The notes under the pieces: model-generated
What the model was told of the DNA's origin: nothing
What the model saw: the letters and a program-made list of their open reading frames with translations, nothing else
The model's database searches: none
Position numbers and translations under genes: made by a program
NCBI RefSeq assembly: GCF_003324485.1
Contig: NZ_QODK01000002.1
Coordinates: forward strand, 806,001-870,000
Length of the DNA stretch: 64,000 bases
Origin: Cohaesibacter intestini
GTDB taxonomy: Bacteria; Pseudomonadota; Alphaproteobacteria; Rhizobiales; Cohaesibacteraceae
Reading direction: 5' to 3'
Shown here: positions 20,931 through 37,555 of the stretch, one piece after another
Numbering within the stretch: the stretch's first letter is position 1
Layout: each line of letters begins with the position of its first letter

Positions 20931-21518
20931 ATGACCGGTGCTCCCTATCTGATTTTTCTCGACCGGGACGGCACCCTGATCCGGCATATCCCCTATTTGT
21001 GCGATCCCGATGCCGTTGAGCTGCTGCCCGGTGTGCGCGATGGTTTGGTGCGCCTCAAGGAAGCAGGCCATTTGCTGTTTCTTCACACCAACCAGTCCGG
21101 GGTTGGTCGGGGCTATTTCACGTTGGAGCAAGCCATCGCCTGCAACGAGCGAATGATCGAGCTGCTTGCCTTCCCGTCCTCTCCCTTCGAAGCCATCTGC
21201 GTGGCACCGGAGCATCCCGACGCAGAACCGGTCCACCGCAAACCCTCCCCCCGCTTTGCCCTTGAAATGGCCAAGCGACATGACGCCACGCCCGACCAGA
21301 TTGTCTATATCGGTGACACCCCGTCCGATCTGCTGGCCGCACAAGCCGCAGGAGGTCTCGGCATTGGCGTCAATAGCGGCGACGGCCCGCTGCCCGACAG
21401 GCTGAAGGCGCAAGGGTTGGAGGCTGTCTTCCCGGTCTTTGATTGCTTTGGCGCCGCTGTCAGCCATATCCTTGCGACAGACTTGGACAGCACAAAGAGG
21501 GACACGGAAACTCCATGA
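20931..21518 (+). CDS. gmhB: HAD phosphatase of the GmhB/HisB type
   Basis: Probably removes the 7-phosphate of heptose 1,7-bisphosphate. The protein is 195 aa from ATG 20931, with GGAAG five bases upstream; the frame is open to a GTG at 20919. HAD motifs are complete: DRDGT (11-15), TNQSG (53-57), HRKPSP with the motif III Lys (102-107) and GDTPSD (128-133). The zinc loop of GmhB is incomplete: C90 and H95 are present but the second Cys pair is replaced by AEPVH. The family is therefore sure, the exact substrate less so. It opens the sugar locus and overlaps the next gene by four bases. Confidence 0.82.
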   Translation: MTGAPYLIFLDRDGTLIRHIPYLCDPDAVELLPGVRDGLVRLKEAGHLLFLHTNQSGVGRGYFTLEQAIACNERMIELLAFPSSPFEAICVAPEHPDAEPVHRKPSPRFALEMAKRHDATPDQIVYIGDTPSDLLAAQAAGGLGIGVNSGDGPLPDRLKAQGLEAVFPVFDCFGAAVSHILATDLDSTKRDTETP

Positions 21519-22222
21519 CAAACATGCCTCTTTTGGTTTTGGCCGGGGGGTTCGGCACCCGTCTGCAATCCGTTGTCCATGATGTCCCCAAGCCGCTCGC
21601 CCCGGTTCATGGCCGCCCGTTCCTCGCCTATATGCTGGACAATTGGCGTGATGCAGGCATCCGCGATTTTGTGTTCCTGTTGCATCACCGGGCCGAGCAG
21701 ATCGAAGCCTTTCTGGAAGACCAGTTCGCCCAGCCCAGCTTTGAAGGTTGCAGCTGTCGCTCCATCATCGAGGCTCAGCCTCTGGGCACCGGAGGGTCTT
21801 TAGCCAATGCCTTGGCAGAGCTTGCCATTGAGGAGACATTCCTTGCCACCAATGCCGACACCTGGCTGCCAGCCGGAATGGAAGCCATGGTCAAGGCAGA
21901 CGGGCAAGCCATGGCCATTACCCATGTCGAGAATGCCAACCGCTATGGCCGCGTTCAATTCGACAAAGACCGGATCATTGCCTTTGAAGAAAAACAGAAC
22001 CAAAGCGAGTCGGGCTGGATCAATGCAGGCATTTATCGCCTCAATCCGCACTGTCTGACCGATTGGGATGGATCATTTCTGTCGTTGGAGGCTGAGATTC
22101 TGCCGAAACTGGTGAAATCCGGCGCAATCCGCGCCATCAAGATCGATTGTGCCTTCATCGACATTGGCGTTCCTGCTGATTATGAGTATTTTCAAGCGAT
22201 GATCGCAGAACAGGGAATCTAG
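21515..22222 (+). CDS. hddC: Sugar-1-phosphate nucleotidyltransferase, HddC-like
   Basis: The protein is 235 aa from ATG 21515, which overlaps the upstream stop (ATGA) and has GGAAA ahead. The nucleotidyltransferase signature GGFGTRL is at 11-17 and VPKPLAP at 24-30, and a NADTW-type metal site is near 110. Size and sequence style match D-glycero-alpha-D-manno-heptose 1-phosphate guanylyltransferase (HddC). With gmhB-, hddA- and gmhA-like neighbours it would complete GDP-heptose synthesis. A hexose-1-phosphate substrate cannot be excluded. Confidence 0.8.
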   Translation: MTNMPLLVLAGGFGTRLQSVVHDVPKPLAPVHGRPFLAYMLDNWRDAGIRDFVFLLHHRAEQIEAFLEDQFAQPSFEGCSCRSIIEAQPLGTGGSLANALAELAIEETFLATNADTWLPAGMEAMVKADGQAMAITHVENANRYGRVQFDKDRIIAFEEKQNQSESGWINAGIYRLNPHCLTDWDGSFLSLEAEILPKLVKSGAIRAIKIDCAFIDIGVPADYEYFQAMIAEQGI

Positions 22223-22224
22223 CA

Positions 22225-23604
22225 GTGCCTCTCGATAAATTTCAGATCCATCAGAATGCCACACTTCGGGAAACGCTGGTCAAGATCGAGAAAAATCACG
22301 AAGGCTGCATTCTGGTGACCGATGATGCGGATCGGGTCATTGCTATTGCCACCGACGGCGACATCCGGCGCAAACTGCTCGCGGACATGACCCTCGAAGA
22401 CCCGATTAGCCATTGCGGCAATGCCGATTTCATGGCCGCTGACTTGAAAACCCCGCGCGAGTTGCTGCTTAAACAGCTTGATCAGAAAATTCGACTGATC
22501 CCGGTGCTCGATGAGGATGGCAAGTTGGTGCAGGTCGTCACCAAAAAACACGTCCCGATCCAGATTGAGGAACCGGTCTATGCCCGCGCCCGCGCGCCCG
22601 TCCGGGTCAGCTTTGGCGGCGGCGGGTCGGACCTGACCCACTTTTTCTCTGATCATCAGGGCGCGGTGATCAATTCCACCATTTCCTCCTATTCCCACGC
22701 CACCTTGCGCAAACGCAAGGATTTGAAGGTGATCATTTCGTCCCTTGATCTGGGCGAGACCCTCAAGGCTGACAATCTGCAAGAGGCTTTCACCAAACCG
22801 GGGCCCTTCAATCTGATTTTGGCTCTGCTGCGCACCATCCAGCCAGCCTTCGGCTTTGAACTCTATGTCAATTCCGATTTTCCGCTGAAATCCGGACTTG
22901 GCGGCTCGTCGGCGGTGTCGGCTGCCATCCTTGGCTGCTTCAACCAGTTCCGGCAGGACCGTTGGGACCGCCATGAACTGGCCGAACTGGCCTTTCAGGC
23001 CGAACGCCTCTATCTCGACATTGCCGGCGGTTGGCAGGACCAATATGCGACCGTTTTCGGCGGCTTCAACTTCATGGAATTCGGCATGGAGCAGACGGTG
23101 GTCAATCCCTTGCGGATCAATGACGACATCCTGTTCGAGCTAGAAGAGAGCCTTGTTCTGTGCAACACCGGCACCGTGCATGAATCCGGCGAAATCCACG
23201 ATGATCAGCGCAAGACCATGTTGAATGCCGAAATCCGCGCGCTGGTCAGCCGCTCGGTCGAGCTGACCTATCAGCTGCGCAACGATCTGCTGCGCGGCCG
23301 CCTGATGCAATTTGGCCAGAGCTTGCATGAATTATGGAAGATCAAGCGCCAATTGAGCGGCAAGATCAGCACCGACGAACTTGACCGCATTTATGATGCG
23401 GCCCTCGAATTGGGGGCCATTGGCGGCAAGATTTTGGGTGCTGGCGGCGGCGGCTTTTTCCTCTTTTATGTTCCGCCCTTCAAAAAGCATAAAGTCATGA
23501 CCGGTTTGCAGGCCATGGGCCTGACGACCCTGCCCTTCCGCTTTGAAGCTGATGGCCTGAATGCCTGGACCATCCGCGAAGGCAAGCAATCCCTCGAAGA
23601 TTAG
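22225..23604 (+). CDS. hddA: Fusion of a CBS-domain pair with an HddA-type heptose kinase
   Basis: The protein is 459 aa starting at GTG 22225 with AGGGA upstream. Residues 1-115 form two CBS motifs (VIAIATDGDIRRKLL, and LIPVLDEDGKLVQVVTKK near 91-108). Residues 120-455 are a GHMP kinase of the D-glycero-D-manno-heptose 7-phosphate kinase family: FGGGGSDLTHF (130-140), ATP loop LKSGLGGSSA (221-230) and a late GAGGGGFFLF motif. CBS pairs usually bind adenine nucleotides and regulate. In the legionaminic acid route a CBS pair is fused to the nucleotidyltransferase PtmE, not to a kinase. The next gene starts 14 bases downstream. Confidence 0.85.
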   Translation: MPLDKFQIHQNATLRETLVKIEKNHEGCILVTDDADRVIAIATDGDIRRKLLADMTLEDPISHCGNADFMAADLKTPRELLLKQLDQKIRLIPVLDEDGKLVQVVTKKHVPIQIEEPVYARARAPVRVSFGGGGSDLTHFFSDHQGAVINSTISSYSHATLRKRKDLKVIISSLDLGETLKADNLQEAFTKPGPFNLILALLRTIQPAFGFELYVNSDFPLKSGLGGSSAVSAAILGCFNQFRQDRWDRHELAELAFQAERLYLDIAGGWQDQYATVFGGFNFMEFGMEQTVVNPLRINDDILFELEESLVLCNTGTVHESGEIHDDQRKTMLNAEIRALVSRSVELTYQLRNDLLRGRLMQFGQSLHELWKIKRQLSGKISTDELDRIYDAALELGAIGGKILGAGGGGFFLFYVPPFKKHKVMTGLQAMGLTTLPFRFEADGLNAWTIREGKQSLED

Positions 23605-23618
23605 TCTGGAAGTTCAAG

Positions 23619-25511
23619 ATGTCCCTGAAAATTGACCCATTCACTGTCGGCGAAGGGCGATGCTTTGTCATCGCCGAGATAGGCAACAACCACAATGGCT
23701 CTTTCGAGCTGGCCATCGATCTGATCAATCAGGCGATCGATGCCGGAGCCGATTGCGTCAAATTCCAGATGCGTCATCTCGATCAGGTCTATCGCGAACG
23801 CAGCCTCAAAAAGGCAGGCGAGGATCTCGGCTCGGAATATATTGTCGATCTGCTCCAACGCTTCGAGCTGAGCAAGGATGAACATCGCAAACTGAAAAGC
23901 TATTGTGACGAAAAAGGCGTGCTTTATCTCTGCACCCCTTGGGACGTTACAAGCCTCGCCGTGCTGGAGGAAATGGGCGTAGAAGCCTATAAGGTGGCGT
24001 CCGCGGACCTCACCAACCTGCCTCTGCTCGATGCCTTGGCCAAAACCGGCAAGCCGCTGATCCTGTCCACCGGCATGAGCCGCACCGGAGAGGTCGAAAC
24101 CACAGTCGCCTTCCTGCAGGCGCGCAAGGCCGCTTTCGCGCTTCTTCATTGCAACAGCACCTATCCCGCTCCCTTCCACGACATCAATCTGCGCTGGATG
24201 GAAGGCTTGCGTCAGCGTCATCCGGTGGTGGGCTATTCCGGCCATGAGCGCGGCACGGCGGTCTCCATCGCAGCCGTTGCCTTGGGAGCTTCCATCATCG
24301 AGCGCCATTTCACCGCCGACAGGTCAATGGAAGGCCCTGACCATGCAGCCTCCTTGGAAAAAGCCGAATTCCGCCAGCTGGTCGATGGCATCCGGCAGGT
24401 TGAAGAAGCCTTGGGCTCCGGCACCGAGCGCAATCTGTCGCAAGGCGAAATGATCAACCGGGAAAATCTCGCCAAAAGCCTTGTTGCGGCCGCCCCCATT
24501 GCCAAAGGCACAGAAATCACCGCCGATCTGATCAAGATCCGCAGCCCCGGGCAGGGCCTCGCCCCGCATCATTATCAGGCGCTGATCGGCAAGACGGCCA
24601 AGCGCGACATGGGCTATGAGGATTTCTTCTATCCCGCCGATCTGGCGCTTCATGCCGCCGAACCCCGCCAATATGCCTTTGACCGCCCATGGGGCGTGCC
24701 GGTGCGCTATCATGATTATGCCGCCTTCGCCAAACGCATCACGCCGGACTTCTACGAATTCCATCTCTCCTATTCGGATATGGATCTAAAGCTCGAAGAC
24801 TATCTCGAGGGCCCTTATGACTGCGACTTTGTCGTCCATGCGCCGGAATTGTTCGCCGAAAGCCGCCTGATGGACCTCGCCACGCCCGATGAGGCCGAGC
24901 GGCAGAAATCCATCGCCGAGACCCAGCGGGTCATCGACATCACCCGTGCGCTGAAGGCCTATTTCCCCAAAACCGAGCGCCCGATGATCGTCGCCAATAT
25001 TGGCGGCTTCACCATGGATGCGCCGCTGCCCAAAGACGCCATTGAAGGCTATTACGAGCGCTTCGCCCAAAGCCTTGAGGCGCTGGACCGCGATGGTGTT
25101 GAGCTGATCCCGCAAACCATGGCGCCTTTCCCATGGCATTTTGGCGGCCAGCGCTACCAGAATCTCTTCGTCACCATCGAAGACATCCTGCATTATTGCC
25201 AGAAACTTGACCTGCGGATGTGTTTCGACATTTCCCATTCCTCGCTGACCTGCAACCATCTGGGTGTCGATTTTTATGACTTTGCGGCAAAAATTGCCCC
25301 CGTCTCCGCTCATCTCCATTTGGGTGACGCCAGCGGGCTGAATGGGGAAGGCCTGCAAATCGGCGAAGGCACGCTCGATTTTGATCGCCTCGGCGCGATC
25401 CTCAAGCAAGGCTGCCCCGACACCCCCTTCATCCCGGAAATCTGGCAGGGCCACAAGGGCGAGGGCGAAGGCTTCTGGATCGCCTTTGAACGCCTTGAAG
25501 GCAGGCTCTAG
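23619..25511 (+). CDS. neuB: NeuB-type ulosonic acid synthase fused to a TIM-barrel isomerase-like domain
   Basis: The protein is 630 aa, nearly twice the usual NeuB length of about 350. Residues 12-275 are a PEP-dependent NeuB barrel: EIGNNHNG (20-27), KFQ (48-50), TPWD (106-109), KVASAD (125-130), the metal histidines in GYSGHE (H209) and ERHFT (H230). Residues 285-345 are the SAF (antifreeze-like) domain. Residues about 355-630 are a second barrel resembling sugar-phosphate isomerase/epimerase (xylose isomerase-like), with conserved His/Asp/Glu positions in FDISHSS and HLHLGDASG. NeuB enzymes condense PEP with a C6 sugar. The fused barrel could make the substrate or modify the product; its role is unknown. 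Confidence 0.88.
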   Translation: MSLKIDPFTVGEGRCFVIAEIGNNHNGSFELAIDLINQAIDAGADCVKFQMRHLDQVYRERSLKKAGEDLGSEYIVDLLQRFELSKDEHRKLKSYCDEKGVLYLCTPWDVTSLAVLEEMGVEAYKVASADLTNLPLLDALAKTGKPLILSTGMSRTGEVETTVAFLQARKAAFALLHCNSTYPAPFHDINLRWMEGLRQRHPVVGYSGHERGTAVSIAAVALGASIIERHFTADRSMEGPDHAASLEKAEFRQLVDGIRQVEEALGSGTERNLSQGEMINRENLAKSLVAAAPIAKGTEITADLIKIRSPGQGLAPHHYQALIGKTAKRDMGYEDFFYPADLALHAAEPRQYAFDRPWGVPVRYHDYAAFAKRITPDFYEFHLSYSDMDLKLEDYLEGPYDCDFVVHAPELFAESRLMDLATPDEAERQKSIAETQRVIDITRALKAYFPKTERPMIVANIGGFTMDAPLPKDAIEGYYERFAQSLEALDRDGVELIPQTMAPFPWHFGGQRYQNLFVTIEDILHYCQKLDLRMCFDISHSSLTCNHLGVDFYDFAAKIAPVSAHLHLGDASGLNGEGLQIGEGTLDFDRLGAILKQGCPDTPFIPEIWQGHKGEGEGFWIAFERLEGRL

Positions 25512-25636
25512 GACAAGCTGTCAAACAAGGCTTGTGACAATCCGTTAACAAGCCATGGCCCGGCAATACCACAGAGCTGGACCATGGTTTACACTGCTCC
25601 CACTATCTTTGATTCTGGGAAAGATTTGGGTTCACT

Positions 25637-26236
25637 GTGCTTTCAATAATAAAACAAGAAATCGAAGCCTCGATTGATGCCAAAAAGGCAGCCCTCGCCG
25701 ATGAAGCCCTGCTCGAGCAACTTGCTGTGCTTTCTCAAAAATGCGTCGACAGCCTAAGAGCGGGCGGCAAAGTGGTTCTGGCGGGCAATGGCGGCTCCTT
25801 CGCCGATGCCCAGCATTTGGCGGCTGAATTTGTCTGTCGCTTCCGGCGCGACCGCGCGCCCCTGCCCGGCCTTGTGCTTGGTGCCAATGCGTCGCTCGCC
25901 ACCGCCATTTCCAATGATTATGGCTATGACCATATCTTTGCCCGCGAATTGGAAGCGATGGCGACCAGCCAAGATGTCTTCATCGCCATTTCCACCAGTG
26001 GCAATAGCGGCAATATTATCGAAGCGGTCAAGACCGCCAAAAAACTCAGCATCCATACCGTCGCCTTCACTGGGGACTCGGGCGGACAGTTGGCGGCGCT
26101 CTGTGACTGCATCAAGGTGCCATCCAGCGTCACCGCTCGCATTCAGGAATGCCATATCCTGTTTGGCCATATCATTTGCGGCATTGTCGAAGACAGCCTC
26201 TTCCCTGAGAGCCACCAGCCGGGAGGCGATGCATGA
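25637..26236 (+). CDS. gmhA: SIS-domain phosphoheptose isomerase, GmhA-like
   Basis: Likely converts sedoheptulose 7-phosphate to D-glycero-D-manno-heptose 7-phosphate. The protein is 199 aa starting at a GTG with a poor ribosome site. SIS motifs are GNGGSFADAQH (50-60), the Glu in AAEF (64) and STSGNSGN (119-126). A catalytic-type His lies in ECHILFGHI (171-179), as in GmhA. It is preceded by a 125-base gap, the only sizeable break in the front part of the sugar locus, which may hold an internal promoter. It overlaps neuA by four bases. Confidence 0.85.
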   Translation: MLSIIKQEIEASIDAKKAALADEALLEQLAVLSQKCVDSLRAGGKVVLAGNGGSFADAQHLAAEFVCRFRRDRAPLPGLVLGANASLATAISNDYGYDHIFARELEAMATSQDVFIAISTSGNSGNIIEAVKTAKKLSIHTVAFTGDSGGQLAALCDCIKVPSSVTARIQECHILFGHIICGIVEDSLFPESHQPGGDA

Positions 26237-26967
26237 GTGAGATCATCGCGCTGATCCCGGCCCGTGGCGGCTCCAAAGGGGTGCCGAACAAAAATATCCG
26301 CCCGCTGGCCGGTCACAGCCTGCTCGAATGGTCCATCGCCGCTTGCCTCAAATCCAAGCGCATCGACCGCACCATCGTGACGACGGATTCTGAGGAGTAT
26401 CGCCAATTGGCTTTGTCCCTCGGAGCTGAAGCCCCCTTCCTGCGCCCAGCCGAAATCTCGCAAGATCGCTCGCAGGATATCGAATTTGTCCTCCATGCGC
26501 TGGATTGGCTGAAAGAGCATGACAGCGAGCCACGCCTGATTGTCCAGATCCGCCCGACCACACCGATGCGCGACCCGGCGCTGATTGATGCGGCGATTGC
26601 CGCCTTTGAGGCCTCCAGCACAGCCACCTCCCTGCGCTCGGTTCATGAAATGTCGGAATCGGCCTACAAGACCTTCGAGATCAATCAAGATGGCATTTTG
26701 GCCTGCGTTGGCACCGGCAGCACGGCACTCGACGCTGCCAACCGGGCGCGACAGGCCTGCCCGACCACCTATTTCCCCAATGGCTATGTCGATGTGCTTT
26801 CGACCGACTTCATCCGTCGCACCGGATTGATGAATGGCGACCATGTTCTGCCCTTCCTCACCCCGGTCTCCCTTGAAGTCGATAGCGAAGACGATTTCCG
26901 CCATATCGAATATCGGGTCAGCCAAGAACCCGAAATCCTAGACCTTCTGTTTGATGAGGCCCCTTGA
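26233..26967 (+). CDS. neuA: CMP-ulosonate cytidylyltransferase, NeuA-like
   Basis: The protein is 244 aa. It begins with the acylneuraminate cytidylyltransferase signature IPARGGSKGVPNKNI (about 8-22) and has the conserved IVTTDSEEY and QIRPTTPMRDP blocks (about 48-57 and 97-108). It should activate the NeuB product as a CMP-sugar for transfer. The length is typical of single-domain NeuA. It starts inside the end of gmhA and ends overlapping the aminotransferase start by one base, so all three are co-translated. Confidence 0.88.
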   Translation: MSEIIALIPARGGSKGVPNKNIRPLAGHSLLEWSIAACLKSKRIDRTIVTTDSEEYRQLALSLGAEAPFLRPAEISQDRSQDIEFVLHALDWLKEHDSEPRLIVQIRPTTPMRDPALIDAAIAAFEASSTATSLRSVHEMSESAYKTFEINQDGILACVGTGSTALDAANRARQACPTTYFPNGYVDVLSTDFIRRTGLMNGDHVLPFLTPVSLEVDSEDDFRHIEYRVSQEPEILDLLFDEAP

Positions 26968-28346
26968 TGGCGCACCAGCTTTTCTCCCGCGACCCGCAAC
27001 AGGTCGCCCCGGTCGACACGGCCCACCGGACGATCAAGACGACCATCCCCTGCCCCGGCACCGCCGAGATTTTGGCCCGCCTCGATGAAACCGAGAGCCG
27101 CTCCATGCATGGCCAGCTGCCTTTGGTCTGGGATAGCGCGATCAATTACAATGTGTTTGATGCGGCAGGCAACAAATGGATCGACTTCACCTCCTGCATC
27201 TTTGTCGCCAATGTCGGCCATTCCAACCCGCATCTTTCGAGCGCCATTGCCGCCACATTGGATAAGCCGCTTTATAGCTGCTACGCCTATGGCAACGAGG
27301 TCCGCGCCCGCTATCTCGAAAAATTGCTGGCCTTTGCTGGCAAGCCATTTGAGAAAGCATTTCTTTTGTCTGCGGGCACCGAGGCCACCGAAGCGGCTTT
27401 GAAGCTGATGCGCATGCATGGCCAGTCGGTCGGCAAAAAGCGTGGCGGCATCATCACCATCCAGAATAACTGGCATGGCCGCACCCTCGGCGCTCAAATG
27501 TTGAGCTCGAATGTCGGCCAGAAAAGCTGGATCGGCACCCTCGACCCGGACATTCATCACATTCCCTTCCCCTATCCGTGGGAGACCAACGACAAGACCG
27601 GCCTCGACATCCTCGACAAGGGCCTTGCCGAGCTGGCGGACAAGGGCATTGATCTGGCCACCGACATTGCTGGTTTCATGTTGGAGACCTTTCAAGGCTG
27701 GGGCGCGGTCTTCTATCCCAAGGACTATGTGCAGGCCATCAAGGCGATCTGCGACAAGCATAATATCCTGCTGGCCTTTGACGAAATGCAGGCCGGGTTC
27801 GCCCGCTGCGGCAAGGCCTTTGGCTATCAGCATTATGAGGTCGAACCCGATCTCATTTGCGTTGGTAAGGGCATGGGCGGCGGCGTGCCGATTTCCGGCG
27901 TCATCGGTCGCAAGCACATTATGGACCTGCCCGACATTGGCAATATGAGCAGCACCCATTCCGCCAACCCGCTCTGCTGCGCCGCTGGCCTTGCGGTGCT
28001 GGAGGAAATCGAGAGCAAAAATCTGATTGAGGAATCCCGCCGCAAGGGCGAGCTTCTATTTGCCGAGCTGCGCAAGCTGGAAGCCCGCTTCCCGCACCGG
28101 ATGGGGCCGTCTCTGGGCCATGGCCTGCTGGCTGCGATCTTCTTTTATAAGCCCGGCACGCGCGAGGCCGACGGGGCCTTTGGCAGCAAGGTCTGTGAAC
28201 TTGCCATGCAGAAGGGCCTGCTGATGGTTCATACCGGACGCGAATCCATCAAGCTTGGCCCACCGTTGACCATCCCCGACGACGCCATTCTTGAAGCCAT
28301 GGCGGTCTTGGGCGAGTGCATCGCAGAAGTGGACGCCGACGCATGA
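26967..28346 (+). CDS. Class III PLP-dependent aminotransferase
   Basis: The protein is 459 aa from ATG 26967 (TGATG overlap). It has the fold-type I class III pattern: SAGTEATEAALKLMR (phosphate-binding region), the D272 of LAFDEMQAGF that holds the pyridine nitrogen, and K301 in VGKGMGGGVP as the PLP lysine. Members act on omega-amines, glutamate semialdehyde or sugars. In this position it presumably aminates a keto- or aldehyde-sugar intermediate. Sugar-nucleotide aminotransferases are usually of the DegT/PseC type, so class III is unusual for a glycan locus. It overlaps the VOC gene by four bases. Confidence 0.88.
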   Translation: MAHQLFSRDPQQVAPVDTAHRTIKTTIPCPGTAEILARLDETESRSMHGQLPLVWDSAINYNVFDAAGNKWIDFTSCIFVANVGHSNPHLSSAIAATLDKPLYSCYAYGNEVRARYLEKLLAFAGKPFEKAFLLSAGTEATEAALKLMRMHGQSVGKKRGGIITIQNNWHGRTLGAQMLSSNVGQKSWIGTLDPDIHHIPFPYPWETNDKTGLDILDKGLAELADKGIDLATDIAGFMLETFQGWGAVFYPKDYVQAIKAICDKHNILLAFDEMQAGFARCGKAFGYQHYEVEPDLICVGKGMGGGVPISGVIGRKHIMDLPDIGNMSSTHSANPLCCAAGLAVLEEIESKNLIEESRRKGELLFAELRKLEARFPHRMGPSLGHGLLAAIFFYKPGTREADGAFGSKVCELAMQKGLLMVHTGRESIKLGPPLTIPDDAILEAMAVLGECIAEVDADA

Positions 28347-28780
28347 TCACCAACATCCGTCATACCGGCCTCGTGGTTCAGGATCTCGACAAGAGCCTCC
28401 ATTTCTGGTGCGACGTCATGGGCTTCACAGTGGCCCGACGGATGGACGAAGCAGGACCCCATATCGACGCGATCATGGAGCTTGATGATGTGGCCGTCAC
28501 CACGGTCAAGCTGGCCGCCCCCGATGGCAATCTGCTCGAACTGCTGAAATTCACTTCCCATCCGGACAAGCCGGATTGGGAGGGCAGCCCCGTCAGCACC
28601 GGCCTCACCCATATGGCCTTCACGGTGAGCGATCTGGAAGCCACCTGCGCCACGCTCCTCCAGCATGGAGTCCGGCTGCATTCCGACATCCAAGTTTCCC
28701 CCGATGGCATGGCCAAGCTGGTTTATTGCCGCGGCCCGGAAGGCCTGATCCTCGAACTTGTGGAGATGATCGCTTCATGA
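28343..28780 (+). CDS. VOC-superfamily (glyoxalase-like) protein
   Basis: The protein is 145 aa from ATG 28343 (ATGA overlap). It contains two beta-alpha-beta-beta-beta modules, with metal-ligand-type residues in IRHTGLVV (His 6), LLELLKF, LTHMAFTV and LILELVEMI. The layout is that of methylmalonyl-CoA epimerase and glyoxalase I relatives. Such a metal enzyme could epimerise or isomerise a sugar intermediate; the substrate is not predictable. Its stop overlaps the following methyltransferase. Confidence 0.8.
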   Translation: MITNIRHTGLVVQDLDKSLHFWCDVMGFTVARRMDEAGPHIDAIMELDDVAVTTVKLAAPDGNLLELLKFTSHPDKPDWEGSPVSTGLTHMAFTVSDLEATCATLLQHGVRLHSDIQVSPDGMAKLVYCRGPEGLILELVEMIAS

Positions 28781-29439
28781 CCCGACACTCCATCGATTGG
28801 CATACCAAGCAGGATGAGGATTATCTCCAGCTCTGCATTGACCGCCTGTCCCAGCCACCGCTCTTCTGGGTGGAGCAATTCGTCACCTTCATCAATGAAA
28901 AGACCGCTGACTGGGGGGACAATCCGCGCAAGGTCAATGACATTGGCTGCTGCACCGGGGCCTTCAATGTCGGCCTGCGTGAGTTGGGCCAATGCCCGAT
29001 TGATTATCAGGGCTATGACATTTCCCAGACCTATCTCGACATTGCCCGCCTGCATTTCCCCAAGCGCCCCTTCGAGCTGCTCGATATTGGCCAAAGCAAG
29101 CCGCGTGAGACCGACATTTCGGTCATGTCCGGCACGCTGGAACATGTCGATGAGTGGCAAAGCGCCCTTTCTCATATCTGCCAGACCACCAAACGTTTCG
29201 TGCTAATGCGCACCTTCCTTGGCACCAGCTTTGAGGTCGGCCACTATTCCCAGCCCGGCGCGGACCATTCCTACCCGATCTATCAATTCACCTTCCAGCA
29301 GCTGCATGAAGAAGCCGAAAAGCATGGCTTCTCGGTGGAAATGATGCGCGACAAGGCCACGGATTCCATTGCCAAATATCTCGGCTGCGGCATCACCCGC
29401 ACCCAATATGTCTGTCTGCTGACCGCAAAGGGGGCGTAA
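28777..29439 (+). CDS. SAM-dependent methyltransferase
   Basis: The protein is 220 aa, from an ATG within the VOC stop. A Rossmann-type SAM site is seen in NDIGCCTGAFNVGL (about 49-62). An acidic loop follows strand beta-2 (GYDISQTYLDIARL) and MSGTLEHVDEWQ corresponds to the motif after beta-4. These are typical of class I methyltransferases on small molecules or sugars. It is probably an O- or N-methylation step in the same sugar pathway. The gene overlaps the next by one base (TAATG). Confidence 0.8.
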   Translation: MTRHSIDWHTKQDEDYLQLCIDRLSQPPLFWVEQFVTFINEKTADWGDNPRKVNDIGCCTGAFNVGLRELGQCPIDYQGYDISQTYLDIARLHFPKRPFELLDIGQSKPRETDISVMSGTLEHVDEWQSALSHICQTTKRFVLMRTFLGTSFEVGHYSQPGADHSYPIYQFTFQQLHEEAEKHGFSVEMMRDKATDSIAKYLGCGITRTQYVCLLTAKGA

Positions 29440-30413
29440 TGCTTGCCCATCAGATCATTGACGGCCTGACCAAGCCCTGCCCACGCTGTGGCGCGGTCTG
29501 CGATCATGTCCTGACCGCCAAATTGCGCCGGGGCGAAGGGGTGGTCTATCATTGCCCCTCCTGCGACATCGGCTTCCTCGATGGCAAACCCTTCGACGTC
29601 AAAGCCTTCTATGAGACCGAATATCGCAAAAATGTCTCCCACAAGGCGGAAGGCACCGCGACCCATGCGCAAGAGATGTTCACCATCTATAGCCGCTTTC
29701 AGCAGCAGCGCCTCGATTTGATCCTGCCCCATGTGACACCCCAGACGGACCTGTTGGAAATCGGCGCGTCCGCCGGGCAGTTCCTCACCCATCTGGAGGG
29801 CAAGACCAACCGGCTCGCAGCCATTGAGCTGGATAGAGATTGCTGCGCCTTCATGGCCGAACGCTTCGCCTTTGAAATCAGCACCGACTTCTTCGCCGAC
29901 GGCCCCTTTGCCGATCAGCAATTTGATATCGTCTGCTCCTTTCAGGTGTTGGAGCATACGCCCGACCCGGTCGCCTTCCTCAAGGATGTGCACAAGGCCC
30001 TAAAGCCCGGCGGCCGTGCCTTCATCGAGGTGCCGAACCTCTATGACCCTTTGCTGACCACATGGAAGGTCCCCAGCTACACCCAATTCTATTATCACGC
30101 CGAGCATCTTTTCTATTTTTCGGGCGACGCTTTGAAAAAGGCCTGCAAGGACGCCGGCTTTGCGGATGAGGCGATGAGTCTACACTTCGCGCAGGATTAT
30201 AATCTGCTCAATCATCTCCACTGGATCATGAATGACGGCCCGCAAGGCACCTGCGAGATCGGCCTGTCCGAGGTCAAGCTCGAGGGTCATGATCCGGCGC
30301 TGACCTCTTGGCTCAGCGACCAGTTGGCCGCGCTCAATGCAGCTTATATCGACAAGCTGGTGGCCAGCGGCCAAACCTCAAATCTTCTGATCGAATTGGT
30401 GAAAGAGACATGA
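29439..30413 (+). CDS. Sugar-type methyltransferase with N-terminal zinc ribbon
   Basis: The protein is 324 aa. Four cysteines in two CxxC pairs (C14/C17 and C39/C42) form a zinc-ribbon-like head. The SAM-binding domain follows, with LLEIGASAGQFL (about 104-115) and SFQVLEHTPDP (about 168-178). The zinc-finger plus methyltransferase order recalls the TylF/NovU-type C-methyltransferases that act on NDP-sugars, but the C-terminal part here is shorter and different. Overlaps on both sides place it firmly in the sugar operon. Confidence 0.8.
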   Translation: MLAHQIIDGLTKPCPRCGAVCDHVLTAKLRRGEGVVYHCPSCDIGFLDGKPFDVKAFYETEYRKNVSHKAEGTATHAQEMFTIYSRFQQQRLDLILPHVTPQTDLLEIGASAGQFLTHLEGKTNRLAAIELDRDCCAFMAERFAFEISTDFFADGPFADQQFDIVCSFQVLEHTPDPVAFLKDVHKALKPGGRAFIEVPNLYDPLLTTWKVPSYTQFYYHAEHLFYFSGDALKKACKDAGFADEAMSLHFAQDYNLLNHLHWIMNDGPQGTCEIGLSEVKLEGHDPALTSWLSDQLAALNAAYIDKLVASGQTSNLLIELVKET

Positions 30414-31252
30414 TTGGCTTCATTCAGGGCCGCTTGGTCCCACAGGTCAATGGCATGATTCAGGCCTTCCCATGGGAAGACTGGCAAAAGGAAATCGCGC
30501 TCGCTGACAGCATCGGCATCCATTGCATGGAATGGACGCTCGATCAGGCGGGCCTCTATGACAATCCGCTGATGACCGAGCAAGGCCAGGCCGAAATCCG
30601 CGCTCTGTGTGACAAGCATCACCTCACCATCCCGAACCTCACCGGCGATTGCTTCATGCAAGCGCCTTTTTGGAAGGCCGAAAGCGCGGCGGAAAAAACC
30701 GCTCTGCTTGCCGATTTCGAAGCCATCTGCCGGGCTGCCAGCACAGTCGGCATCCGCAACATCGTCGTGCCTCTGGTCGACAATGGTAGCTTGCAGACCG
30801 AAGCTGAAACCGCATGCTTGATCGATGCGCTGCTCGCCCGCAAGGCTTTGTTTGACAGCCTTGGCATCGCCATCCTGTTCGAAAGTGACTTTGCCCCCCA
30901 GCCATTGGCAGAATTCATTGCCAAGCTGCCCGCCCCGACCTTTGGCATCAATTATGACAGCGGCAACAGCGCTGGCATTGGCTATGATGTCAAACAAGAA
31001 TGGGCTGCCTATGGCGAGCGGATTGTCAATCTTCATATCAAAGACCGCCTCTATCAAGGCACCACCGTGCCGCTCGGCTCGGGGGCGGCGGATTTCCCTT
31101 CACTGTTCGCCTGCATGGCGGAAGCCAAGTATTCAGGCGACATCATTCTGCAAACCGCCCGTGCTGCCGATGGCGATCATCTCAGAGCCATTCTCGCCTA
31201 CCGCGCCTTCGTCAAGGACGGGCTGAAGCAGGCGGGAGGCACCTATGATTGA
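30410..31252 (+). CDS. TIM-barrel sugar isomerase/epimerase-like protein
   Basis: The protein is 280 aa from ATG 30410 (ATGA overlap). It belongs to the xylose isomerase-like barrel family: an early MIGFIQGRLV strand and metal-type residues in MEWTLD (Glu), FESDFAP (Glu), FGINYDSGNS (Asp) and VNLHIKDR (His/Asp). This is the second such barrel in the locus; the other is the C-terminal half of the NeuB fusion. It probably interconverts ketose/aldose or epimers. It overlaps the following SDR by eight bases. Confidence 0.82.
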   Translation: MIGFIQGRLVPQVNGMIQAFPWEDWQKEIALADSIGIHCMEWTLDQAGLYDNPLMTEQGQAEIRALCDKHHLTIPNLTGDCFMQAPFWKAESAAEKTALLADFEAICRAASTVGIRNIVVPLVDNGSLQTEAETACLIDALLARKALFDSLGIAILFESDFAPQPLAEFIAKLPAPTFGINYDSGNSAGIGYDVKQEWAAYGERIVNLHIKDRLYQGTTVPLGSGAADFPSLFACMAEAKYSGDIILQTARAADGDHLRAILAYRAFVKDGLKQAGGTYD

Positions 31253-32003
31253 TCTCAAAGGCAAGTCCGTCCTCATCACCGGTTCATCCAAAGGCATTGG
31301 CCTTGCCATCGCCCGCGCCCTGCATCAGGCCGGCTGTCATGTGCTGCTGAATGGCCGCACCGAAGCGCCCCTGAAACAGGCATGCGACAGCCTCGGCGCT
31401 GAGCGCTGTTCCTATGTGGTGGGTGATGTCTCTGATCCGGCAGAGGCGCAAAGAATCGCTGATGCAGCCCGCGCCCGGTTTGGTAGCCTCGATATCCTTG
31501 TCTGCAATGTCGGCTCCGGGGCCTCTGTGCCACCCGGTCAGGAAACAGCCGCCGAATGGCAACGGGTGTTTGCCACCAATCTGTGGAGCACGACAAATAT
31601 GGTGGAAAGCTGTCGCGACCTGATCACCAGACAGACCGGGTCGATCCTCTGCATTTCCTCCATTTGCGGCAATGAAACCATCCCCGGCGCACCCGTCACC
31701 TATTCCACCGCCAAGGCTGCGCTCAATGCTTTTGTCAAAGGCATCGCCCGGCCCTTGGGCAAGGATGGCATTCGCATCAACGCCATCGCGCCGGGCAACA
31801 TCCTGTTTGACGGCTCGGTCTGGCAGCGCAAGCTGGATGAGAATGAAGAAGCCGTTGATCAGATGCTGCAAAAGGATGTGGCGCTTGCCCGTCTGGGCAC
31901 CCCCGAAGAGATCGCCAATCTCACCCTTTGGCTGGCCTCCGGTCAGGCAACCTATGCCACGGGCCAAATCTGGACCCTTGATGGCGGCCAGACCCGCCGC
32001 TGA
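31245..32003 (+). CDS. Short-chain dehydrogenase/reductase
   Basis: The protein is 252 aa, a classical SDR. It has the NAD(P) site TGSSKGIG (12-19), the NVGSG strand, catalytic Ser about 12 residues before Y153, and YxxxK (Y153, K157). The C-terminal segment ATGQIWTLDGGQTRR is standard. It presumably oxidises or reduces a sugar hydroxyl in the pathway. It starts eight bases before the end of the barrel protein gene and ends 22 bases before a second SDR. Confidence 0.88.
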   Translation: MIDLKGKSVLITGSSKGIGLAIARALHQAGCHVLLNGRTEAPLKQACDSLGAERCSYVVGDVSDPAEAQRIADAARARFGSLDILVCNVGSGASVPPGQETAAEWQRVFATNLWSTTNMVESCRDLITRQTGSILCISSICGNETIPGAPVTYSTAKAALNAFVKGIARPLGKDGIRINAIAPGNILFDGSVWQRKLDENEEAVDQMLQKDVALARLGTPEEIANLTLWLASGQATYATGQIWTLDGGQTRR

Positions 32004-32025
32004 CATGACTGAAGGATAGACGTCC

Positions 32026-32859
32026 ATGACCAACAGTGTATTGAGCAGCTTTGATCTAACCGACCGAGTGGCGATCATCACCGGCGGCGCAGGTTTGCTT
32101 GGCCGCAAACATGCCGAGGCTGTGGCTGAGCTTGGCGGCATCCCTTGCCTGCTTGACCTTGATGCGATCCGAGCGGCGGATGCCGCCAAAGATCTGGAAG
32201 CCACCCATGGCTGCCAGACCTTCTCCATTGGCGTCGACATCACCAACCCCGACGCCATCACGGCAGTGCGCGACGCCATTCTGACGCGCTTTGGCCGCAT
32301 TGATATCCTGATCAACAATGCCGCCAACAATCCCAAGATGGAATCCACCGATGGGGCCAACTGGTCGCGCTTTGAGGATTTCCCGCTTCAGATCTGGCAA
32401 GACGACATCTCCGTCGGCCTGACCGGAGCGATGCTCTGCGCGAAAATCTTCGGCACGCACATGGCGCAGAAGGACGGTGGTGTCATTCTCAACATCGCCT
32501 CCGATCTCGGCGTTATCGCCCCAGACCAGCGGATCTATCGCAACGAGGGCGAAAGCGCAGAGACACAAAGCGTCAAGCCCGTCACCTATTCCGTCGTCAA
32601 AGCAGGTCTCATCGGCCTCACCCGCTATCTCGCCACCTATTGGCCCGATAAGGGTGTGCGCGCCAACGCGCTGGCCCCCGGCGGGGTCTATAATGGCCAG
32701 GATGACGCCTTCGTTGAACGCTTGACCAATCTCATCCCCATGGGCCGGATGGCCGACAAGGACGAATATAAGGCCGCCGTTGCCTTCATGATATCGGACG
32801 CATCGAGCTACATGAATGGCACCACCCTTTCCATCGATGGAGGCCGCACCGTCTGGTAG
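32026..32859 (+). CDS. Short-chain dehydrogenase/reductase
   Basis: The protein is 277 aa with a glycine motif TGGAGLLG and catalytic Y188/K192 in the YxxxK pattern, ending TTLSIDGGRTVW. It resembles the SDRs found in ulosonic-acid and capsule loci, including PtmA-type proteins of Campylobacter flagellin glycosylation. AAGGA lies about ten bases before the ATG. A small terminator-like hairpin overlaps its stop codon, suggesting the sugar operon ends here, before the glycosyltransferase. Confidence 0.85.
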   Translation: MTNSVLSSFDLTDRVAIITGGAGLLGRKHAEAVAELGGIPCLLDLDAIRAADAAKDLEATHGCQTFSIGVDITNPDAITAVRDAILTRFGRIDILINNAANNPKMESTDGANWSRFEDFPLQIWQDDISVGLTGAMLCAKIFGTHMAQKDGGVILNIASDLGVIAPDQRIYRNEGESAETQSVKPVTYSVVKAGLIGLTRYLATYWPDKGVRANALAPGGVYNGQDDAFVERLTNLIPMGRMADKDEYKAAVAFMISDASSYMNGTTLSIDGGRTVW

Positions 32860-32870
32860 GGCCTTTTTTT
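32841..32870 (+). terminator. Terminator-like hairpin overlapping the end of the second SDR gene
   Basis: AGGCC (32841-32845) pairs with GGCCT (32860-32864) and is followed by a run of seven T. The stem is short (five pairs, 14-base loop), so termination may be partial, with read-through to the glycosyltransferase 126 bases downstream. Confidence 0.5.
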
Positions 32871-32995
32871 GCACGGGGGACGAATTGTGAATGCGCCCCC
32901 TTTTGCCCTAAACTGGCCCGACTTGACTGATTTGCCCGCCAATCCTTCACCGATCCGGCGGCATCCAGCGACCCGAAACGTAAGGCAGATCCAAC

Positions 32996-34912
32996 ATGCA
33001 AGCTCAGACCGCTGACCGCCTCCAGAAGGCCCAGAAATATCTCGCAGCCGGAAAAGCCGATCGGGCGGAGACAATCTGCCGCAAACTGCTCAAGTCAAAA
33101 GATGGCTATGTCGATATTCGCCTCACCCTGTCCAAGGCCTTGCTGGCGCAGGACAAGCCGGATCAGGCCCTGAAATATCTCTCGGAAGCCGCCAACCATC
33201 AGCCCGACAAACTGGCCCTCCAATCGGCCACCGGCGACCTTGCCTTCCGGATCAAGAAATATGCAGAGGCCATCGATCACTACCAGAAGGCCGTCAGCCT
33301 TGAGCCGTCCAATCCCGACTATTGGTACAGGCTGAGTGATGCCCTGTTTCAGGCTGCCACAGAGAATTTCAAGTCTTATCTGGATCGGGGTGAAGTCACG
33401 CAAAGCGGCGAGACCAAACCTAGAGTCGACTTCTACGACGATGCGATTGCCATCTCCAACAAGGCGATCGAACTCTTCTCTGAAGATGTCCCATTGTTGC
33501 GTCTGGCCGGTGAGATCCTCCTCAAGGCTGGCATCGAGGATGTGGCCATGCTGTGCTTTGAGCGCTGTCTGCCGCTGGACCCCTTCGATCACATTGCCCA
33601 TTATCACTGGCTTGAGTACAAACGCTCCAAGAACGCCAATCAGGAGATTGTCGATTACGCCATTGCGCAAGGCGACCGCATTGCCAACGATGCCATCTGC
33701 AATCGGACCGTCACTTATGCCTATGCCCAGCTTGGCCGCTATGACAAGGCGATGGAGCATATCAACCGCTCGGTCGAACTTGCTCCGAAAAACGACAAAT
33801 TCGTCACCGCCAAAGCGCATATCTATTATCGACTGGGGCAGTTTGAAAAATCGATCACCTACAGCAACAAAGCGCTGCAGCTCAACCCCGAAGCGACCTA
33901 TCCGCATTGGCTGAACTGTCTGTCCAACTGGAAACTAGGCAATCTGCCCGAAGCCCACAAATGCAACCCCTATCGCTTCGAGGTTGCTGACGTCTGCACC
34001 AAGTTCAATTTGAAAAGCCCCCTCTGGCGTGGGGAAAGCCTTGAAGACAAGCGAATTTATGTCTGGTCGGATCAGGGCATCGGTGACATTTTCAAAACGA
34101 CCAGCATGCTGAGGGAAATCACTCCGCATGAAAATGTGATTGTCGCTGTGCAAGACAAATGCATGCCGTTCATCAAGGCCCTGTTCCCCCGGATCGATGT
34201 CCGGCCCCTGCCAACCAAACTGCCAGCCCTGAGCATCGTCAGCAATGCCTTTGGCACCAAACAGAGCCGCAAGAATGAATTCCCATCGATTGAAGAGGAT
34301 TTTGACTGTCAGATCCCGCTTGGCTCACTGATCGAGGTTCTGCGCCCCGAAGTCTCCGATTTCGAAGGCAAAGACAAAATAATGATCCTGCCGGAGGAGC
34401 ATGTCGCCCCCTTCCGCGCGCTCAACATCCTGTCCAATCCAAACACCACCAAGGTCGGCATGGCCTGGTCGAGCAAGACCTTCGGTGACCCGGAAGCCTA
34501 CGGCTATCTGGAACTGGAAGAGCTGTTGGATGTCCTGCGGATGCCCGGTTTCGAATTCTATAACTTCCAGTATACGACCAAGGAGCACGAAATCACGGCT
34601 TTCCGCGAAAAGCACGATGTGCCGCTCTATCATGCGCCGGGTCTTGATCTGATGGATGACATGCTGGAAACCGCCGCCTTTAACAGCTGCATGGATCTGT
34701 TTGTCGGTCCGGGCTCGACCAGTTCGGACATTGCCGGCGCTGTTGGCATCAAGTGCTTGCGTTACGCCCCATGCCACTATCAGGACAATCTGGGCCAACC
34801 CTATGTGCCATGGTTCGCAGATCAGAAGTCCATCGACATTCCATGGGGAGACGACGCGCTCAACTATATCGACGTGATCAAGCAGTGGCTGCTGGACAAT
34901 AAAAAACACTGA
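32996..34912 (+). CDS. flmG: TPR-glycosyltransferase of FlmG architecture, candidate flagellin glycosyltransferase
   Basis: The protein is 638 aa. Residues 1-315 are TPR repeats (for example 77-104, 232-262 and 266-296 with the W-LG-Y-A-P spacing). Residues about 340-635 are a glycosyltransferase domain of the GT41/GT9 style: VWSDQGIGDIFKT (356-368), KVGMAWSSK (486-494) and GPGSTSSDIAGAVG (571-584). In Caulobacter, FlmG has the same order; its TPR part binds flagellin and its transferase part attaches pseudaminic acid. Here the gene sits between a ulosonic-acid locus and two flagellin genes, so I infer it glycosylates the flagellins. AAGG lies ten bases before the ATG. Confidence 0.78.
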   Translation: MQAQTADRLQKAQKYLAAGKADRAETICRKLLKSKDGYVDIRLTLSKALLAQDKPDQALKYLSEAANHQPDKLALQSATGDLAFRIKKYAEAIDHYQKAVSLEPSNPDYWYRLSDALFQAATENFKSYLDRGEVTQSGETKPRVDFYDDAIAISNKAIELFSEDVPLLRLAGEILLKAGIEDVAMLCFERCLPLDPFDHIAHYHWLEYKRSKNANQEIVDYAIAQGDRIANDAICNRTVTYAYAQLGRYDKAMEHINRSVELAPKNDKFVTAKAHIYYRLGQFEKSITYSNKALQLNPEATYPHWLNCLSNWKLGNLPEAHKCNPYRFEVADVCTKFNLKSPLWRGESLEDKRIYVWSDQGIGDIFKTTSMLREITPHENVIVAVQDKCMPFIKALFPRIDVRPLPTKLPALSIVSNAFGTKQSRKNEFPSIEEDFDCQIPLGSLIEVLRPEVSDFEGKDKIMILPEEHVAPFRALNILSNPNTTKVGMAWSSKTFGDPEAYGYLELEELLDVLRMPGFEFYNFQYTTKEHEITAFREKHDVPLYHAPGLDLMDDMLETAAFNSCMDLFVGPGSTSSDIAGAVGIKCLRYAPCHYQDNLGQPYVPWFADQKSIDIPWGDDALNYIDVIKQWLLDNKKH

Positions 34913-35112
34913 CAACATTTGCGACGGAAATGCCACGAAAGCCAGTCACCAGAAGGGAAACTCCCTTCCTTGCGCAAAGCTTTCGTTCGGCAGCCCAGAT
35001 TTATTAAAGTGCAGTTAGCCAATTTGCTGCTTTTTTGATTGTCAGAAATGACAGACCGTAAAATTTCCGCTAGTATAGTTCCCAAGTTTACCTTGTACAC
35101 TTGAGGCTACAC

Positions 35113-35508
35113 ATGGATTTATCGGTCCAGAAAATGCAGCCGCCAGCGTCAGTTCAAGGCAAATCGGCGGCAAGGAAGGCATCCCGCTCAGGCGCCCTGA
35201 CTGAAGACGAAGCGGTCGAATCCACTGAACGCGACGCGGAAATTCGATTCATGCATGGCAATACGGCCTATGAAGGCATCGAACAGGACGACCAGCTGGA
35301 TCAGGATCCCAAAGGCAGAAAGCCGCGCCGCAAAAGGCGAGGCGCCAACCTGCTGTCGGGTGAAGACCTCTCTCAACTGACCATATCGATGGAAATGGAG
35401 AACACACCACAGCATTCCGCTGATGGTTTGATGAATCTGCGGGCCTACACGGCAGCTCCAGCCCCCCGAGAGGATGACGAAGAGCCCAACTTCGATCGCA
35501 ATATCTAA
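35113..35508 (+). CDS. Small acidic, probably disordered protein of unknown function
   Basis: The protein is 131 aa from ATG 35113, with TGAGG seven bases upstream; a TTG at 35101 is also open. The sequence is polar with no membrane segment, a basic patch (KGRKPRRKRRG near residue 80), acidic flanks and the end EEPNFDRNI. I recognise no family. Coding potential is supported by a ribosome site, continuous frame and codon use like neighbours. Its place between the glycosyltransferase and flagellin genes suggests a flagellar role, possibly regulatory, but this is only contextual. Confidence 0.6.
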   Translation: MDLSVQKMQPPASVQGKSAARKASRSGALTEDEAVESTERDAEIRFMHGNTAYEGIEQDDQLDQDPKGRKPRRKRRGANLLSGEDLSQLTISMEMENTPQHSADGLMNLRAYTAAPAPREDDEEPNFDRNI

Positions 35509-37383: not shown

Positions 37384-37414
37384 AAAACGGCGGGACATTC
37401 CCGCCGTTTTTTTG
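37384..37414 (+). terminator. Rho-independent terminator after flagellin 1
   Basis: A perfect 12-base stem (37384-37395 with 37399-37410, GC-rich core ACGGCGGGA) has a three-base loop CAT and is followed by further T. This is one of the strongest terminators in the window. Confidence 0.9.
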
Positions 37415-37532
37415 TCGTTAATAATCTGTTCACCAATGTCTTTAACGACGTTCCTGCACACTCTATTAACCTTAAATTAGCCTTTCATAGCGATCATCCG
37501 ACTAAGCCTTAGAAAAAGGTCAATATTGTATT

Positions 37533-37555
37533 CGAGTACCCAGAAAGGTAACACA
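37533..37555 (+). promoter_or_regulatory. Flagellin 2 mRNA leader with conserved motif
   Basis: CGAGTAC directly followed by CCAGAAAGGT and AACACA, then the ATG. It shares both blocks with the flagellin 1 leader but lacks its five-A spacer and has a shorter distance from ribosome site to start (six versus ten bases). Confidence 0.5.

Follow-up and report, generated by a model that had tools for sequence, protein, structure and literature searches.

A 64,000-nucleotide stretch of the Cohaesibacter intestini genome (contig NZ_QODK01000002.1, positions 806,001 to 870,000; called the window below) carries, at 20931-34912, an operon that combines heptose-type enzymes with those of ulosonic acid synthesis next to two flagellin genes. 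The locus very probably serves the glycosylation of flagellin with an ulosonic acid. Its central enzyme, NeuB-TIM, is a NeuB-type synthase fused to a xylose-isomerase-like TIM barrel. We propose, and give the proposal an even chance, that the operon makes one CMP-activated acid for flagellin and that NeuB-TIM uses D-glycero-D-manno-heptose as its acceptor, which would yield a ten-carbon acid. We are slightly less sure of the general form of this proposal, in which a HddA/NeuB-TIM module of many phyla makes a 3-deoxy-dec-2-ulosonic acid from D-glycero-D-manno-heptose and phosphoenolpyruvate, put to use on flagellin here, and the same family makes ketodeoxynononic acid (KDN) when its partner supplies mannose. 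Heptose is favoured as the acceptor because the HddA-type heptose 7-phosphate kinase is kept upstream of NeuB-TIM in every testable locus and because the arginine that binds the N-acetyl group in the Neisseria synthase is replaced by an invariant serine. From such evidence we infer the identity of the substrate, the opening of the C1-activated sugar, the order of tailoring and the transfer to flagellin.

Conservation of the HddA/NeuB-TIM Module

A contig scan with the fusion returned 367 relatives. The best 80, all of which match both domains, were retained, and 29 of these are from Bradyrhizobium or Bradyrhizobiaceae. The nearest named relative, at 81% identity, belongs to a Cohaesibacter metagenome-assembled genome (MAG; locus L010). 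A locus was testable for HddA if it had at least 600 bases upstream of the fusion, which excludes 3 of the 80. All 77 testable loci, which come from several phyla, have a HddA-type kinase on the strand of NeuB-TIM and at most 1.3 kb upstream of it. It is mostly the direct neighbor; in L068 a methyltransferase-like match stands in between. Outside Bradyrhizobium, 35 of 43 loci have HddC at most 900 bases upstream of HddA, and 37 of 51 have gmhA in the fetched locus. A profile built from 12 proteins of these loci detects a CMP-transferase no more than 6 kb downstream in 42 of 48 non-Bradyrhizobium loci and in 28 of 28 Bradyrhizobium loci. The block after this core varies among representatives, being a class III aminotransferase with a vicinal oxygen chelate (VOC) protein, a class IV aminotransferase, DegT with Gfo/Idh, or an extra short-chain dehydrogenase/reductase (SDR). 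The HddA linkage and the retention of HddC and the CMP-transferase despite the changing tailoring block count in favor of heptose as the acceptor.

The pairing is also seen in a phylum sample of 398 genomes, where the full fusion was found in 5. Only 4 HddA matches in the sample span the CBS part of the query; these lie in 4 of the 5 fusion genomes, no more than 1 kb from the fusion. The matches in the other 45 genomes with HddA matches align over the kinase part only. Module searches in genomes scored the first few candidates per genome, and these counts are lower bounds.

Several side observations concern the composition of these islands. A second NeuB-family gene without a TIM domain is present in the same fetched locus in L011, L022, L025, L026, L034, L040, L047 and L050, and two ulosonic acids may be made there. 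In L041 (6173-7512), two open reading frames (ORFs) that resemble an IS3-type transposase by sequence lie upstream of the HddC-like stretch. HddC and GmhB seem to be fused in proteins of about 400 residues in L059 (19800-21026), L060 (18807-20087) and other Bradyrhizobium loci, some kilobases from NeuB-TIM and often on the opposite strand.

The NeuB-TIM Synthase

NeuB-TIM matches PF03102 (3.5e-89), a SAF domain and PF01261 (3.1e-23), and reaches 358.4 bits with the N-acetylneuraminate synthase model TIGR03569, below its cut-off of 399.65. The window protein keeps the residues found at Glu25, Lys53, Gln55, Tyr186, His215, His236 and Asp247 of the Neisseria synthase NmNeuB, a set that we take to belong to the active site also where no published description covers it. 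For part of the set an active-site role has been described, and Arg314 of NmNeuB positions the N-acetyl group of N-acetylmannosamine (PMC6795526). Ser309 of the window protein aligns with this arginine. Serine stands there in 70 of 70 aligned fusions (the window and 69 of the 80 loci; the other 11 have no called ORF) and in both HddA-free relatives. Of the comparison synthases, 12 extend to the position and all 12 have arginine there, annotated LegB/LegC- and Pse-context enzymes among them; four further comparison rows have no residue there, two of them because they had been shortened. The replacement of the N-acetyl-binding arginine by an invariant serine speaks for an acceptor that carries no 2-acetamido group.

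The model of the fused TIM domain has a predicted local distance difference test (pLDDT) score of 88.9, and its Foldseek and VIA matches are ketose 3-epimerases, endonuclease IV and xylose isomerases. A separate TIM barrel of the operon, TIM2, is modelled with a pLDDT of 95.7, and its top Foldseek match is UlaE (3cqj_B, TM 0.82). A hydrolase role for the fused domain was considered, as VIA ranks endonuclease IV (5zhz, Z 22.4, root mean square deviation 2.6, 235 aligned residues). Many epimerases and isomerases also rank in VIA, and hence the TIM fold leaves this role undecided. By the metal-ligand pattern that we take to be typical of tagatose 3-epimerases, the fused barrel (residues 499, 537, 567 and 607) has an invariant glutamine for the first metal-site glutamate, and TIM2 (30410-31252) has one for the last. 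One catalytic glutamate of the two is thus missing in each barrel, and not the same one, so that neither looks like a two-base epimerase.

An HddA-Free Sister Lineage and KDN

In Ensifer (L093, 11611-13920) and in genome G034 (locus L095, 6975-9224), Pfam places a CBS domain on NeuB-TIM itself, and the HddA query matches the fetched loci through its CBS part alone. In a tree, the two proteins form a pair (support 0.999) that falls outside the group of all 70 HddA-linked proteins (support 0.85). In Ensifer, the frame before neuA is a mannose-1-phosphate guanylyltransferase/mannose-6-phosphate isomerase (ManC), above cut-off. Locus L080, which falls within the HddA-linked group, encodes a HddA of only 327 residues, and its NeuB-TIM carries, by alignment only, a CBS-like N-terminus from about 9630. 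It is as if the CBS domain moves between HddA, which bears it in the window, and NeuB-TIM, which bears it in Ensifer and G034 and seemingly in L080. Substrate-site positions matching NmNeuB 246, 249, 250 and 288, among others, separate HddA-linked from HddA-free fusions. The comparison uses two HddA-free sequences and positions selected for conservation; the differences agree with different acceptors but are only suggestive. A search for more HddA-free fusions in the class of G034 found one in 1 of 48 genomes, G034 itself; plasmids gave Ensifer alone, and a DNA search of E. coli genomes gave none. A contig from a viral collection (L099, 5001-5702) encodes a NeuB relative with 35% identity over residues 132-380 of the CBS-NeuB-TIM query.

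D-glycero-D-manno-heptose has the manno configuration of mannose and one more carbon, and the same holds for the GDP forms of the two sugars. The simplest unifying inference would be that the NeuB-TIM family condenses a manno-configured aldose with phosphoenolpyruvate, so that the sister lineage, beside ManC in Ensifer, might carry out the same reaction with mannose and make nine-carbon KDN. The position of this lineage outside the HddA-linked group and the GDP-mannose enzyme beside it in Ensifer count for our proposal. In Serratia marcescens, NeuB bears an additional isomerase/epimerase domain of the COG1082 type, and production of both sialic acid and capsule requires neuB. KDN is present in this capsule together with N-acetylneuraminic acid (Neu5Ac) at one twentieth of its amount, and both depend on the capsule region (PMC9000132). 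We take NeuA/NeuB of the Serratia KL1/KL2 capsules to be the closest experimental anchor, the Serratia NeuB being likened to ours by description, and the dependence of KDN on the capsule locus counts for the proposal as well.

The Operon and Its Genomic Setting

The source genome is a 4.79 Mb assembly of 27 contigs with a completeness of 99.4%. Family calls were made with Pfam and NCBIfam scans and PDB sequence searches. The features are as follows.

20931-21518, plus strand: GmhB-type HAD-IIIA phosphatase (heptose 1,7-bisphosphate 7-phosphatase family; NCBIfam PRK08942, PDB)
21515-22222, plus strand: HddC-type sugar-1-phosphate nucleotidyltransferase (NCBIfam NF049965)
22225-23604, plus strand: fusion of a CBS domain and a HddA-type (heptose 7-phosphate kinase) GHMP kinase (NF049969, PF00571, PDB)
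23619-25511, plus strand: fusion of a NeuB-SAF synthase and a xylose-isomerase-like TIM barrel (PF03102, SAF, PF01261)
25637-26236, plus strand: GmhA-type sedoheptulose 7-phosphate isomerase (PDB 2xbl, SIS_2)
26233-26967, plus strand: NeuA/PseF-type CMP-ulosonate cytidylyltransferase (PF02348, 3e-22; TIGR03584 PseF, 4.5e-32, under cut-off)
26967-28346, plus strand: class III (omega-type) aminotransferase, tailoring (PF00202, 2.4e-86; GabT/PuuE-like PDB chains)
28343-28780, plus strand: VOC/glyoxalase-fold protein, tailoring (PF00903, 2e-16)
28777-29439, plus strand: S-adenosylmethionine (SAM) methyltransferase 1, tailoring (PF13489/PF08241)
29439-30413, plus strand: SAM methyltransferase 2, tailoring, with a Cys-rich N-terminus read from the sequence (PF13489, 1.1e-20)
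30410-31252, plus strand: second xylose-isomerase-like TIM barrel (TIM2, UlaE-like), tailoring (PF01261, 2.1e-19)
31245-32003, plus strand: SDR oxidoreductase 1, tailoring (PF13561, 4.7e-54)
32026-32859, plus strand: SDR oxidoreductase 2, tailoring (PF13561, 1.3e-39); counterpart in 62 of the 80 related loci
32996-34912, plus strand: FlmG-like tetratricopeptide repeat (TPR) protein, proposed flagellin glycosyltransferase (Pfam TPR matches)
35927-37357, plus strand: flagellin A, proposed acceptor (PF00669/PF00700, PRK12688)
37526-38977, plus strand: flagellin B, proposed acceptor, ORF from TTG (PF00669/PF00700, PRK12688)

The preliminary description of a plus-strand set of heptose and ulosonic-acid genes beside flagellins was borne out: all the named genes are present, open and on the plus strand. 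Thirteen genes run from the GmhB-type phosphatase to the second SDR, and the FlmG-like gene starts 136 bases past them. Eight of the 13 junctions among the 14 genes overlap by 1-8 bases, and the widest gaps are 125 and 136 bases. The run is preceded by flgI (18971-20080) and a flgN-like gene, the latter named in the preliminary description and without a Pfam or NCBIfam match at 0.001, and it is followed by the flagellins. The GC content is 0.55-0.60 across the 13 genes and 0.565 in the window, and hence composition gives no mark of recent insertion. A methionine ten codons inside the TTG ORF of flagellin B fits the start of flagellin A, and family scans locate FlbT after the two flagellins. 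The stretch before flagellin A (34913-35926) is AT-richer and contains a promoter-like site at 35820-35848 and a 135-residue ORF at 35101-35508 without a Pfam or NCBIfam family match; a terminator-like hairpin of 12 pairs lies between the flagellins at 37384-37410. Promoter and terminator scans gave about as many hits as shuffled sequence (9 against 7.5 and 20 against 18.4).

GmhA, HddA, GmhB and HddC, the enzyme families of the GDP-heptose pathway, co-occur in this one operon. The GmhB-type protein matches PRK08942 at 8e-27 (93.9 bits, cut-off 178), with GmhB chains 4pnh and 2gmw among its PDB matches. NF049965 (HddC) is the top NCBIfam match of the HddC-type protein, at 1.9e-40 (138.9 bits, cut-off 300). 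The HddA-type kinase, fused to CBS domain PF00571, matches NF049969 at 8.2e-71 (239.2 bits, cut-off 600), and its closest PDB chain, 4n3o, is named a putative D-glycero-D-manno-heptose 7-phosphate kinase (3.4e-56). The GmhA-type protein reaches 171.1 bits with TIGR00441 (cut-off 209.5), its top PDB match is the phosphoheptose isomerase 2xbl (2e-52), and it is the top SIS_2 match of the genome (91 bits; the runner-up has 38).

The flagellar nonulosonic acids known so far are nine-carbon sugars built from activated N-acetylglucosamine (GlcNAc). A whole-genome search found a single NeuB gene. The best PseB score in the genome is 33.9 bits (cut-off 407.75), the best PseC score 197.4 (cut-off 423.5) and the LegC score 131.3 (cut-off 420), all below; LegB was not searched with a model of its own. 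Among 14 control genomes, 1 passes the PseB cut-off, 2 pass that for PseC and 1 that for LegC. The Epimerase_2 family, to which we take NeuC, LegG and WecB to belong, has no match in the genome, and the same search gives matches in 11 of the 14 controls; this lack of a NeuC/LegG-type gene counts for our proposal. The earlier statement that no PseB/PseC/LegC-type supply accompanies this NeuB holds genome-wide at these cut-offs, and no complete pseudaminic or legionaminic pathway was found elsewhere in the genome.

Flagellar Islands

The FlmG-like gene is near the flagellins, and its product has Pfam and PDB sequence matches to the TPR half only; the C-terminal half has none. This part shares 28% identity over 286 residues (1.8e-28) with a TPR protein beside a flagellin in L052, and Glyco_transf_9 weakly matches a protein of L095 that is related to the FlmG-like one.

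Flagellin or FlgI matches are present in the fetched flanks of 3 of the 80 loci (L010, L043 and L052), and hence the module mostly serves elsewhere. L010 keeps FlgH, FlgI and the flgN-like gene upstream, and its contig ends before the possible FlmG position. In L052, from the betaproteobacterium MOLA814, the island lies between two flagellin genes, with the TPR relative of the FlmG-like protein and FliD. L043, from a Desulfuromonas MAG, is informative, as apart from heptose genes, synthase, CMP-transferase, methylation and one transferase candidate it contains little. On its 5' side are FlgI and FlgK-, FlgL- and FliW-like proteins, the last three named from sequence. Then come HddC, HddA, NeuB-TIM, the CMP-transferase, a methyltransferase, a 201-residue protein, a Maf/PseD-like protein (PF01973 above cut-off, the PseD model far under its own) and two flagellins. 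No other sugar supply is seen in this island. Maf enzymes of two species accept CMP-Neu5Ac and 3-deoxy-D-manno-octulosonic acid (Kdo) as donors (PMC11339370). In G034/L095, a MptE/Maf-like protein and TPR proteins adjoin CBS-NeuB-TIM, and no flagellin is seen there.

Proposed Pathway and Its Alternatives

In the proposed pathway, GmhA, HddA, GmhB and HddC would make GDP-D-glycero-D-manno-heptose. NeuB-TIM would take heptose freed from GDP or phosphate, perhaps isomerized by the TIM domain, and condense phosphoenolpyruvate with it. The product would be a 3-deoxy-ulosonic acid of ten carbons, a homologue of KDN with one carbon more. The NeuA-type enzyme would form the CMP donor; the aminotransferase, VOC protein, TIM2, SDRs and methyltransferases would decorate the acid, and the FlmG-like protein would transfer it onto flagellin. 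Judged from sequence, heptose as the NeuB acceptor appears about as likely as all alternatives together.

Several points weigh against this pathway. NeuB could use a C1-activated GDP-sugar only after its opening, the operon encodes no known hydrolase, and a role of the TIM domain in opening GDP-heptose is guesswork. All four heptose-type proteins match the right NCBIfam models yet score under the curated cut-offs, and therefore their assignments, given in the preliminary description as the four steps of GDP-heptose synthesis, stay at the level of families, all of which are present. None of the 29 Bradyrhizobium loci has HddC next to HddA, and none has gmhA in the fetched stretch. The GmhA model matches at 0.001 in 47 of 50 genomes drawn from the 80 loci, in 9 of 50 above the curated cut-off, and gives no match at 0.001 in those of L016 (a 2.1 Mb MAG), L060 and L074. 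The last two are Bradyrhizobium genomes that have HddA and NeuB-TIM and no SIS_2/GmhA match; three more Bradyrhizobium genomes have weak GmhA-model matches only (1e-22 to 1e-24). HddC-type genes are found at 1e-25 in 16 of 22 genome handles (of which G159 and G439, the latter that of L058, give the same place and are seemingly one genome) and not in G034, L041, L036, L037, L047 and L054. These searches thus point to no clear heptose source in some hosts. The fusion also exists without HddA or HddC, in the Ensifer L093 locus and in the G034 genome (where HddC gives no match at 1e-25 and HddA none at 1e-30), and this HddA-free genome carries a GmhA-type SIS_2 gene. The trace of Neu5Ac in the Serratia capsule would be a mild objection to a strict reading of Ser309, and the transferase half of the FlmG-like protein appears to be identified only indirectly.

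The preliminary description left two models, two activated sugars or heptose as the acceptor. Conservation favors the latter, with the heptose-to-NeuB step itself remaining conjectural. The former is unlikely, although it is the best of the alternatives: NeuB-TIM would use mannose from central metabolism for a KDN-type acid of nine carbons, and GDP-heptose, made by the heptose genes, would supply a second, separately attached sugar. It would account for a sister lineage without HddA and HddC, for the KDN linked to a Serratia NeuB with a similar extra domain and for two Bradyrhizobium genomes without GmhA, and it needs no unexplained step from GDP-heptose to the free aldose. However, HddA stays upstream of NeuB-TIM in all testable loci though the tailoring genes vary, and a second donor needs a second transferase, which might lie elsewhere in the genome; the island genes themselves show one candidate each in the window and in L043. 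The substrate-site neighbors also differ between HddA-linked fusions and the two HddA-free sequences.

It is improbable that GmhA, HddA, GmhB and HddC have a substrate aldose that is not heptose, giving an ulosonic acid of another chain length. LmbN, LmbP, LmbK and LmbO act on an octose in lincosamide synthesis, and both the scores under the heptose-model cut-offs and the hosts without GmhA would suit this explanation, but for HddA and GmhA the nearest chains of known structure bear the names of heptose enzymes. Least probable of all is that the operon serves another surface glycan (lipopolysaccharide or exopolysaccharide) and neighbors flagellar genes by chance, as could be argued from the rarity of flagellin or FlgI in the flanks and from a protein cluster shared by eight loci whose single scanned member is an ABC transporter, since the Cohaesibacter L010 retains the same flgI/flgN-like neighbors and the islands of L043, L052 and G034/L095 lie beside flagellins, Maf-like or FlmG-like proteins.

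Bradyrhizose, presumably a ten-carbon O-antigen sugar, was considered as a product for the carbon count of heptose plus phosphoenolpyruvate. It was set apart by its description, in which it is tied to an 11-gene cluster with a dTDP-glucose 4,6-dehydratase, with no NeuB or heptose gene named in the portion of the source used (PMC4743980).

Significance and Comparison with Known Systems

The system is a variant of known flagellin nonulosonic-acid glycosylation, and the sugar itself may be new. Among the matches listed from the open-licence PubMed Central (PMC) literature we recognized no description of a heptose-fed NeuB, and 'deculosonic' matched no paper. The earlier label of undescribed is too broad for the synthase: a NeuB-isomerase fusion is present in at least 80 loci, and the Serratia NeuB has an extra domain (PMC9000132). 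If our proposal is correct, a conserved heptose kinase-synthase pair across many phyla would add a class of ten-carbon ulosonic acids, one carbon longer than the nine-carbon sialic acids. It would also account for orphan NeuB genes and show which masses are worth seeking in mass spectrometry of glycans. The question of whether the acceptor of a NeuB-type enzyme tracks the adjoining sugar-supply gene becomes testable.

GDP-D-glycero-D-manno-heptose is familiar from capsules and S-layers, not as an ulosonate acceptor. Its pathway has the same four enzyme families, found here in one operon; the difference is that HddA here bears a CBS domain and is tied to NeuB-TIM. The legionaminic pathway with the CBS-domain protein PtmE in Campylobacter is similar in its GDP-sugar route and in having a CBS domain on the activation enzyme before a NeuB-type synthase. 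It starts from a glucosamine or GlcNAc sugar, whereas here LegC is under cut-off and there is no LegG-type gene. The pseudaminic acid system of Caulobacter resembles the window locus in its TPR protein FlmG acting on flagellins, its NeuB-family synthase and its CMP-activated acid; the two FlmG proteins are likened by description, not by sequence. Caulobacter uses the PseB/PseC-like FlmA and FlmB (PMC7591256), whereas the present genome has neither above cut-off. Serratia KL1/KL2 combine a NeuB bearing an isomerase-type domain with neuA, as does the window, where neuA follows gmhA. The Serratia NeuB serves capsule and not flagellin; no heptose gene is mentioned in the portion of that source used, and the word 'kinase' is absent from its text (PMC9000132). 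Its ORF of 2241 bp (about 743 residues) fits the CBS-NeuB-TIM form of Ensifer and G034 and not that of the window, and its main product, KDN (PMC9000132), carries no N-acetyl group, as Ser309 would predict.

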